Shown one piece after another: positions 29,831 through 33,064 of a stretch of 64,000 nucleotides of DNA (positions within the stretch are counted from its first letter, which is position 1; each line of letters begins with the position of its first letter). A model generated the notes under the pieces. It made no database searches, was not told where the DNA came from, and saw only the letters and a program-made list of their open reading frames with translations. Where the stretch lies: NCBI RefSeq assembly GCF_009765225.1, contig NZ_VMSF01000001.1, forward strand, positions 2,108,001 to 2,172,000, read 5' to 3'. The position numbers and the translations under genes are program-made. This DNA comes from Leifsonia sp. AG29. Lineage in GTDB: Bacteria > Actinomycetota > Actinomycetes > Actinomycetales > Microbacteriaceae.

Positions 29831-30700
29831 TCAGGCCGCGGCTCGGTCCCGCGCCTCGGCGAGGCCGTCCGCGAGCGGTGTCGTCGGCCGCCCGAGCAGG
29901 CGGCTGAGCGTGCCGTCCGTGTCGGCGAGCGCGCCCTCCCGGATGTTGCCGTCGAGGGCGACGACGAAGCCAACCGTTGCCTCGTCGAGACCGGCGCCCC
30001 GGAGGATCTCCGCGTGCTCCTCCGGCGTCACCGACCGATGGACCACCGGGCGTCCGACGAGCGCCGAGAGAGCGTCGGCGAGGTCGGCGAACGTCCAGGC
30101 CGCGTCGCCCGCGAGCTCGTAGACCGCGCCCTCGTGCCCGGGCGTCGTGAGCACGACGGCCGCGGCCTCCGCATAGTCCTTGCGGGAGGCGCTGGCCACC
30201 CGCCCGTCGCCGGTGCTCGAGACGACCTCACCGGTCGCGGCAGCGGTATCGAGCTGCCCGACGTAGTTCTCCGTGTACCAGTTGTTCCGGAGGATGGTCA
30301 CGGGGAGGCCCGAAGCAGCCAGCAGCCGCTCGGTCTCGGCGTGCTCCGGCGCGAGGACGAGGTCCGTGTCGGTCGCGTGCGGCGCGCTCGTGTACACGAT
30401 CCTGCCCACCCCGGCGGCCACGGCCGCCTCGATGGCGTTGCGATGCTGCGGGATGCGGTTGCCGACCTCCGAACCGGAGACGAGAAGCAGCTCGTCGGCG
30501 CCTTCGAACGCGCGGAGGAGCGTCTCGGGCCGCTCGAAGTCGATCACGGCCGTCTCCACACCGAGGGAGGCGAGAGAGGCGAGCCGGTCCGCGGATCGGC
30601 CGAGGGCGCGGATCCGGGAGGCGGGAACGCCCCGCTCGAGCAGGTGGTCGACGACGAGGCGTCCGAGCTGGCCGGTGGCCCCGGTGACGGCGATGGTCAT
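29831..30700 (-). CDS. NmrA/QorB-like NAD(P)H:quinone oxidoreductase
   Basis: 289-residue atypical short-chain dehydrogenase. The Rossmann motif AVTGATGQLGRLV is at residues 4-16, followed by RNNWYTENY and HRSVTPEEHAEILRGAG typical of the QorB/NmrA-like group, which reduces quinones with NADPH. GAAAGGAACAACC precedes the ATG. It diverges from an HxlR-type regulator across 92 bases, as DUF24/HxlR redox sensors often do with quinone reductases, so induction by quinone or oxidative stress is likely. Confidence 0.88.
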   Translation of the reverse strand: MTIAVTGATGQLGRLVVDHLLERGVPASRIRALGRSADRLASLASLGVETAVIDFERPETLLRAFEGADELLLVSGSEVGNRIPQHRNAIEAAVAAGVGRIVYTSAPHATDTDLVLAPEHAETERLLAASGLPVTILRNNWYTENYVGQLDTAAATGEVVSSTGDGRVASASRKDYAEAAAVVLTTPGHEGAVYELAGDAAWTFADLADALSALVGRPVVHRSVTPEEHAEILRGAGLDEATVGFVVALDGNIREGALADTDGTLSRLLGRPTTPLADGLAEARDRAAA

Positions 30701-30779
30701 GGTTGTTCCTTTCGGTCGGTCACCGGGTCGAACCCGGGGAGCCTCCACAACCTTCCCGGCGGGAGGTACCCACTTTTCG

Positions 30780-30792
30780 GTAAGTTACGTAC
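30780..30792 (+). promoter_or_regulatory. Leaderless promoter and overlapping palindrome of the HxlR-PP2C gene
   Basis: TAAGTT (30781-30786) is a TANNNT -10 ending exactly six bases before the ATG, which puts transcription start at the start codon. The palindrome GTAAGTTAC (30780-30788) covers this -10. GTA-TAC-type palindromes are what HxlR/DUF24 regulators often bind, so autorepression and control of the divergent reductase are plausible. Confidence 0.6.
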
Positions 30793-31974
30793 ATGCAAGA
30801 CGGTTTCGGCTCCCTGAACGGCTACGGCTTCACCGATGGCGTGCTCCCGTCCGCGTGCCCGAGTCGGATCGTGCTGAACCACGTCACGAGCACTTGGGGT
30901 GTGCTCGTGCTCGTCGCCCTCTCCCAGAGCGAGCTGCGCTGGGGCGAGCTGCGCCGCACCGTGCAGGGCATCAGCGAGAAGATGCTCGCTCAGACGCTCC
31001 GGACGCTCGAGAAGGACGGCTTCGTGCTGCGGACCGCCCAGCCGACCGTCCCTCCCCGGGTCGACTACAGCCTGACCGAGCGGGGGCGAGAGCTCACCGA
31101 GCACCTCCTCCCCCTGATGCGGTGGATCGCGGAGAACGCCGACGACATCCTCGCCCCGAACGACGCCGCGCCGGCACCGCTCGGCTTCGTCACCGGCCAC
31201 GCCTCCGCCACGGGGGTTCACCGCGAGGGCAACGAGGACTCGGTGTACACCTCACCCTGGTCGGCGTTCGTCGCCGACGGCGTCGGCGGACACGCAGCCG
31301 GCGAGGTCGCCTCGGCGACGGTGACGATCCGGCTCGCCGCCATGCTCGACGCGACGGAGGGACGGATCTCGGGTGAGGAGCGGCTGCGCGAGCTCATCGC
31401 GGTCGCCAACGCCGATCTCGCTCTGCGGGCCCGATTCGACCCCTCCCTCGACGGCATGGCGACGACGCTGGTCGGTCTCTTCTCCGACGGTAAGCAGACC
31501 TTCGTGGCGCACACCGGCGATTCCCGGGCGTACCGCCTCCGCTCCGGGAAGCTTGAGCTCGTCACCCGCGACGACTCGCTCGTGCAGGAGCTGGTCTCCT
31601 CGGGCGCACTCCAGGAGGCCGACGTGCGGCGTCACCCGCTCCGGTCGGTCGTGACGCACGTCCTCGGCGGTGCGGCGGACGATGCCCGCGCCGTGCACTT
31701 GACCGCTGCTCCCGCCCGCAGGGGCGACCGCTGGCTTCTCGCCAGCGACGGGCTGACCGACTACGTGCCGCCACCGGTGATCGCAGACGCGCTCACCGGC
31801 GGGACGGCACAGGAAGCCGCCGAGCGCTTGCTCGCGGAAGCCCTCCGTTACGACGCGCGCGACAACGTCTCGGTCGTCGTGGCCGATGTTGTCTCCCATA
31901 GGGAGGCTCCCGCATACTCCCCGGCGTTCGGAGGCTCCGCCGCTGCGGACCCAGCATCGTCGCGCGAGCTCTAG
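30793..31974 (+). CDS. HxlR-type redox regulator fused to a PP2C protein phosphatase
   Basis: One uninterrupted 393-residue frame with two domains. Residues 20-122 are an HxlR/DUF24 winged helix (CPSRIVLNHVTSTWGVLVL, LRWGELRRTVQGISEKML, DYSLTERG) with the conserved N-terminal cysteine C22 used for thiol sensing in this family. Residues 130-368 are a PP2C/Stp-type phosphatase with HREGNEDS (D149), VADGVGGHAAGE (D162), HTGDSRAYRLR, LLASDGLTD (D319) and DARDNVSVVV (D357), so the metal site looks intact. There is no membrane segment. It diverges from a QorB-like reductase. A DNA-binding sensor that also dephosphorylates Ser/Thr would link redox and kinase signalling; I do not know this fusion from characterised proteins. 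Confidence 0.88.
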   Translation: MQDGFGSLNGYGFTDGVLPSACPSRIVLNHVTSTWGVLVLVALSQSELRWGELRRTVQGISEKMLAQTLRTLEKDGFVLRTAQPTVPPRVDYSLTERGRELTEHLLPLMRWIAENADDILAPNDAAPAPLGFVTGHASATGVHREGNEDSVYTSPWSAFVADGVGGHAAGEVASATVTIRLAAMLDATEGRISGEERLRELIAVANADLALRARFDPSLDGMATTLVGLFSDGKQTFVAHTGDSRAYRLRSGKLELVTRDDSLVQELVSSGALQEADVRRHPLRSVVTHVLGGAADDARAVHLTAAPARRGDRWLLASDGLTDYVPPPVIADALTGGTAQEAAERLLAEALRYDARDNVSVVVADVVSHREAPAYSPAFGGSAAADPASSREL

Positions 31975-31990: not shown

Positions 31991-33064
31991 TCAGCGGCCG
32001 CGGCCGCCGAGGGCGCGGGCGTCCTGCTTGCCGGTGACGTCTTTGCGGAGCTCCTTCGGCAGGGAGAACATGAGGTCCTCCTCCGCCGTCTTCACCTCGG
32101 CGACGTCGGCGTAGCCCGCGTCGGCGAGGTCGGACAGCACCTCCTGGACGAGGACCTCGGGCACGGAGGCGCCGCTCGTCACACCGACCGTCTCGACGCC
32201 GTCGAGCCACTCCTGCCGGATCTCGTTGGCGTAGTCGACCCGGTACGCGGCCTTCGCTCGGTACTCGAGAGCCACCTCCACCAGGCGGACCGAGTTGGAG
32301 GAGTTCGCGGAACCGACGACGATCACGAGGTCGGCCTGCTCGGCGACCTTCTTGATGGCGACCTGGCGGTTCTGCGTGGCGTAGCAGATGTCGTCGCTGG
32401 GCGGATCCTGGAGGTTCGGGAAGCGCTCGCGCAGGCGTCGCACCGTCTCCATCGTCTCGTCGACGGACAGCGTGGTCTGCGACAGCCAGACGACCTTGTC
32501 GGGGTCGCGCACCACGACGCTGTCGACGTCGCCCGGGCCGTTGACGAGGGTTACGTGGTCGGGCGCCTCACCGGCGGTGCCCTCGACCTCCTCGTGGCCG
32601 GCGTGACCGATCAGGAGGATCTCGAAGTCGTCGCGGGCGAAGCGCACGGCCTCGCGGTGCACCTTGGTCACGAGCGGGCACGTGGCGTCGATCGCCTGGA
32701 GGCCCCGCTCCGCCGCGGAGTTCACGACTGCCGGCGAGACGCCGTGCGCCGAGAACACGACGTGGGCGCCGGGCGGGACCTCGTCGACCTCGTCGACGAA
32801 GATGGCGCCCTGCTGCTCGAGCTCCGACACGACGTGGACGTTGTGGACGATCTGCTTGCGCACGTAGACGGGCGCGCCGTAGAGGTCGAGCGCCTTCTCG
32901 ACTGCGACGACCGCGCGGTCCACGCCGGCGCAGTAACCGCGCGGGGCGGCGAGCAGCACCCGCTTGTGTCCGACGACCGGGTTATCCTGAAGCCGACCTC
33001 GCGAGCCCGGCTCACGGCGCACCGGAATCCGCGGCATCGGGAGGCTGATGGTTGCGTCGCTCAC
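31991..33064 (-). CDS. ispH: 4-hydroxy-3-methylbut-2-enyl diphosphate reductase
   Basis: 357 residues; last step of the MEP isoprenoid pathway, making IPP and DMAPP on a 4Fe-4S cluster. The cluster cysteines appear in [10 protein letters not shown] (C45), DATCPLV and [11 protein letters not shown]; substrate-binding HGV, the TQTTLS-type stretch ([10 protein letters not shown]) and SANSSNS are present. The GTG start is supported by TAGGAT exactly six bases upstream (leaderless). It is divergent from xseA, a common actinobacterial arrangement. Confidence 0.96.

Follow-up and report, generated by a model that had tools for sequence, protein, structure and literature searches.

An HxlR winged-helix regulator fused to a PP2C phosphatase domain in Leifsonia

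The HxlR-PP2C gene of Leifsonia sp. AG29 is, on sequence grounds, a real, conserved, and clade-specific fusion of two known modules; within the range searched it is a new architecture built from known parts, restricted to one clade and dispensable. The reading considered reasonably probable is that of a bifunctional protein, in which a thiol-sensing autorepressor of qorB would carry an active, tethered phosphatase. Positions refer to the window, the whole 64,000-nucleotide stretch of DNA that was analysed.

Architecture of the fusion and its phosphatase half

The fusion gene is apparently monocistronic and convergent with ispH; the gene, its parts, and its downstream neighbor are as follows.

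30793..31974, + strand: HxlR-PP2C fusion gene, a single 393-aa frame from ATG to stop without internal stop
30826..31155, + strand: HxlR/DUF24 winged-helix domain, residues 12-121 (Pfam 31-117)
30856..30858, + strand: codon of C22, the sole cysteine of the protein; MarR/DUF24 regulators have their electrophile-sensing Cys at this position (PMC7835342)
31156..31200, + strand: Ala/Pro-rich linker, residues 122-136
31201..31893, + strand: PP2C/PPM phosphatase domain, residues 137-367
31894..31971, + strand: C-terminal tail (FGGSAA...PAS), common to the stand-alone PP2C orthologues of genomes G006 and G012
31991..33064, - strand: ispH-like gene, named by reading its sequence, convergent and downstream; it anchors the locus in the species comparison

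An earlier note had taken this stretch for one open frame joining an HxlR domain to a PP2C domain, and this is borne out: 393 aa are encoded at exactly 30793-31974 on the + strand, and Pfam matches both domains. The protein belongs to both families, with HxlR (PF01638) at residues 31-117 (4.4e-25; 87.8 bits against a cut-off of 20.8), PP2C_2 at 154-325 (5.6e-8; 33.0 bits against 24) and PP2C at 160-259 (2.6e-7; 31.0 bits against 20.3). The Stp1/IreP-type PP2C model of NCBIfam (NF033484) aligns to residues 138-364 (1.1e-51), however its 175.6 bits fall under the curated cut-off of 230 for the equivalog; the phosphatase half is therefore a PP2C of that general type rather than a certified Stp1. 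A PDB search aligns residues 137-367 to the structure of PstP (6.3e-42), and the best solved HxlR match is 1yyv, a putative transcriptional regulator of the YtfH type (7.3e-29 over residues 18-124). The AlphaFold model is mostly confident for the HxlR half; the PP2C half has pLDDT values mostly below 50, and because its alignment is shallow the model gives no reliable PP2C fold or inter-domain arrangement.

C22 and the metal-binding residues D149, D162, D319, and D357 stand where the earlier note had placed them, and D243 (in GDSR) and S285 are further PP2C residues that it did not list. All of these, together with R144, N147, and G163, are invariant in the 11 fusions that were found, and the five aspartates D149, D162, D243, D319, and D357 are also invariant in five stand-alone PP2C relatives. 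D162, D243, S285, D319, and D357 align with the residues that we take to form the metal sites of PstP.

PstP itself includes transmembrane and extracellular segments, and its gene lies near those of PknA/PknB. Among bacterial PP2Cs of the PstP/Stp1 kind, PstP can be aligned with the entire PP2C half of the fusion, with all ligands present; the fusion differs in carrying a DNA-binding domain and in having no kinase neighbor. The pairing of PP2Cs with Ser/Thr kinases is usual, and the fusion was correctly thought to depart from it: there are nine strong matches to Ser/Thr kinases in this genome, and its other two PP2C genes lie near kinases (3446930 near 3440987 and 3442815; 1489148 near 1490125), whereas no kinase gene is near the fusion and the nearest match is approximately 170 kb away. 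Neither the window nor the fetched flanks contain a kinase motif, and the fusion thus lacks the kinase pairing of an eSTP; the number of kinases shows no clear difference between fused and unfused species. PP2C proteins with PAS, GAF, or REC sensory domains also place a phosphatase output on a signalling domain (PMC1592074; PMC9239204); these have ligand or receiver sensors, whereas the partner domain in the fusion is a DNA-binding HxlR domain.

Distribution, selection, and origin

Among 28 Leifsonia species genomes, this one included, the full-length fusion is present in 11 (the other ten copies being 75-79% identical to this one) and an intact stand-alone HxlR in 12; in one genome (G022) HxlR is followed by a broken PP2C stub, and in four (G005, G006, G009, G017) no HxlR match was found at the threshold used. 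The orthologous fusions that the earlier note suggested looking for are thus uninterrupted in ten further genomes, which excludes the frameshift or assembly error near the joint that it had raised; with the same joint in all ten, several of them in long contigs, an artefact joining two genes is ruled out to near certainty. The concern that homologues might always be split likewise falls away, yet HxlR stands alone in 12 Leifsonia species and in all relatives found outside the genus.

Outside Leifsonia no fusion was found at E <= 1e-50 in a sample of 400 Microbacteriaceae and 397 Actinomycetota genomes, nor in a wider contig scan, which detects close relatives only, nor on plasmids. Two candidates with matches extending past the HxlR half (L045 and L058) were rejected as lacking PP2C. 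In the literature, covered mostly outside subscription journals, HxlR and PP2C occur together as words only in work on archaeal two-component systems.

Purifying selection on the PP2C part is indicated by a mean dN/dS of 0.19, compared with 0.11 for the HxlR domain and 0.31 for the linker (simple Nei-Gojobori count over the fusions in 11 species). On a tree of xseA, ispH, and fumC the main 24-species Leifsonia clade splits into two branches that each contain fused species, and the distribution of fused and unfused loci needs three changes of state. The fused PP2Cs form one clade with support of 99/98, therefore a single origin with several losses is most likely, and one gain within Leifsonia followed by several losses would be the simplest reading; the window's copy is basal in this clade, beside two other groups, and the deepest branching order is without clear support. 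The fusion may instead have been gained in one branch and then transferred to the window's lineage.

Stand-alone PP2Cs 54-60% identical to the fused ones are present in G006, G012, and G014, with G006 and G012 lying outside the 24-species clade; in both of these two the gene (L012, L013) is located upstream of an aldo/keto-reductase-like gene. The joint of the fusion coincides with the start codon of the stand-alone PP2Cs, as MFGF in G006 and G014 corresponds to PLGF in most fusions, and most fusion orthologues have no plausible start codon near the joint from which a PP2C could be translated separately. These two features suggest the probable capture of an entire phosphatase gene, whose product is now made solely within the fusion.

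In G022 (L015/L069) an in-frame stop and a frameshift occur 3' of the HxlR gene soon past the joint, and the HxlR frame is open; the genome is 2.7 Mb, and its close relative G017 is one of the four genomes without an HxlR match at that threshold. At the other unfused loci examined for PP2C remnants, a match in G003 is due to chance and G002 has none. On several occasions the PP2C half has probably disappeared from a locus that retained the HxlR half, which makes the PP2C an accessory module and not an essential part of the switch; its absence from 12 species that keep HxlR, and its decay in G022, mean that the switch works without it.

The divergent promoter and a proposed cysteine switch

Upstream of the fusion the following features are found.

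29831..30700, - strand: NmrA/SDR-type NAD(P)H:quinone oxidoreductase gene, QorB-like, divergent from the fusion
30766..30788: putative operator GTACCCACTTTTCGGTAAGTTAC within the divergent promoter region of qorB and hxlR, an imperfect inverted repeat directly 5' of the fusion start codon

The divergent gene is QorB-like, as had been proposed, matching E. coli YtfG/QorB at 9e-70, and this divergent quinone oxidoreductase gene is kept beside fused and unfused HxlR genes and in other genera. The hxlR-qorB pair of four species (L071-L074, in G013, G018, G025, and G014) lies away from fba and ispH, unlike in the rest of the genus, and appears to have moved as a unit. With E. coli YtfH the HxlR half shares 54% identity and the same divergent qorB (ytfG) partner; YtfH differs in that it is a 126 aa protein, ends past the winged helix, and has no phosphatase. 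The HxlR half is the counterpart of YtfH and probably also of QorR from Corynebacterium glutamicum, which stands alone, unlike the fusion, and was reportedly described by Ehira in 2009 as the actinobacterial DUF24 regulator of a quinone oxidoreductase. QorR is a thiol-based "quinone oxidoreductase regulator" (PMC6306002).

Most bases of GTACCCACTTTTCGGTAAGTTAC are invariant across 24 Leifsonia loci, in contrast to the spacer upstream, much of which varies, and the consensus from the fused loci alone is the same as that from all 24; no other exact copy exists in this genome, where the best of the remaining matches has three mismatches. Similar sequences precede the HxlR genes of Plantibacter, Agromyces, Kineosporia, Actinoplanes, and others, and a related sequence, CTTACTTTTAGTAAG, is located in the E. 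coli qorB-ytfH intergenic region (L081). GTACyyAC-N6-GTAAGGTAC-like sequences occur upstream of HxlR genes in distant bacteria (L059, L060, L061), and a repeat of this type may be a widely shared HxlR operator. The operator common to fused and unfused loci implies retained DNA binding, and no HxlR position separates fused from stand-alone HxlRs; from these two observations we infer that the fusion still binds the operator and regulates qorB and itself. At 30789-30793 and in the orthologues the start codon almost abuts the operator with no visible Shine-Dalgarno sequence; the fusion mRNA may be leaderless.

C22 is the only cysteine in each of the 11 fusions and is nearly invariant in stand-alone HxlR relatives as well, and it stands where MarR/DUF24 regulators (PMC7835342), YodB among them (PMC8063818), have their electrophile-reactive Cys. 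The formaldehyde-sensing HxlR of the B. subtilis type has a Cys-x-Lys pair on helix 1 (PMC7835342), a pair that the fusion lacks, having C22-P23-S/T24 with no Lys. With only one Cys, the chemistry available to the protein would be limited to intermolecular disulfides, mixed disulfides, S-alkylation, or oxidation.

Possible roles of the tethered phosphatase

In the favored bifunctional reading, the N-terminal half would act as a YtfH/QorR-type thiol-sensing repressor at 30766-30788, repressing its own gene and the divergent qorB; electrophiles or quinones would modify C22, the dimer would leave the DNA, and both qorB and the fusion would be induced. The C-terminal half is predicted to be a Mn/Mg-dependent PP2C phosphatase, putatively active, held on a flexible linker and made solely within the fusion. 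As the PP2C would be produced only as part of an induced protein, the phosphatase dose would rise with thiol stress and part of the phosphatase would be kept at the promoter. Its most likely task would be to strip regulatory phosphates set by a Ser/Thr kinase of the cell, be it from the regulator or from other proteins.

A simpler alternative, possible though not favored, is that the fusion merely sets a phosphatase under a quinone-inducible, autoregulated promoter, leaving the two halves independent and the PP2C with substrates in trans. The faster evolution of the linker than of the domains (dN/dS 0.31), the unaltered HxlR half, and the presence of the PP2C as a stand-alone gene in related species are consistent with this; however, a second cistron would have served equally. 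The PP2C start codon is also lost in all fusions with no plausible internal replacement in most, which argues that the tether itself has been kept.

A sharper version of the favored bifunctional reading, though a rather unlikely one, is that the PP2C acts in cis and removes phosphate from its own HxlR half, at a phospho-cysteine on C22 or at a nearby Ser/Thr, and that the fusion thereby withstands kinase control of the quinone response or resets it. The precedent is found in S. aureus, where the kinase Stk1 phosphorylates the N-terminal redox Cys of the MarR-like regulators SarA, MgrA, SarZ, and CymR (PMC4601284), and MgrA is phosphorylated on Ser as well (PMC4601284); these modifications make dephosphorylation in cis a testable idea. 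Like the fusion, the S. aureus proteins are winged-helix redox regulators with an N-terminal Cys; they differ in belonging to another subfamily, in having the phosphatase as a separate protein, and in the [Q/N]XCF motif, which is absent from the fusion (CP[ST]R). The single, invariant Cys of the fusion and the covalent link, which favors a substrate within the same protein, speak for this reading, while stand-alone HxlRs of nearly identical sequence without a phosphatase speak against it. To our knowledge, no HxlR protein has been reported to be phosphorylated, and we know of no transcription factor with its own protein phosphatase used in such a way. The most specific form of the idea is considered improbable: a redox regulator bound to DNA at the qorB promoter, in which the tethered PP2C would take phosphate off the winged-helix half of the same protein, possibly off phospho-Cys22; if true, thiol chemistry and kinase signalling would be integrated on one cysteine of one protein. 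A further reading, judged quite improbable, treats the PP2C half as an almost neutral passenger: a gene that came to lie behind hxlR, is expressed by read-through, and is now being lost. The losses inferred on the tree, the decayed stub in G022, and the clean absence in G002 and G003 might suggest this, but PP2C dN/dS is 0.19 across 11 species and the metal ligands are invariant.

The earlier note had proposed a new type of one-component signalling protein. The genuine and conserved fusion, the complete ligands, the conserved Cys, the divergent qorB, and the common operator uphold this in part and leave a new signalling mechanism plausible; against it, the fusion is confined to one genus as far as searched, and repeated loss of its phosphatase half is probable. 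Bacteria have few Ser/Thr phosphatases, and these act broadly; in the fusion one of them is coupled to a particular promoter and redox switch. With its fused, unfused, and decaying versions, the genus provides a natural panel in which two questions can be tested directly: whether the response changes when a phosphatase is tethered to a transcription factor, and whether the kinase marks on redox regulators known in S. aureus matter in other bacteria.
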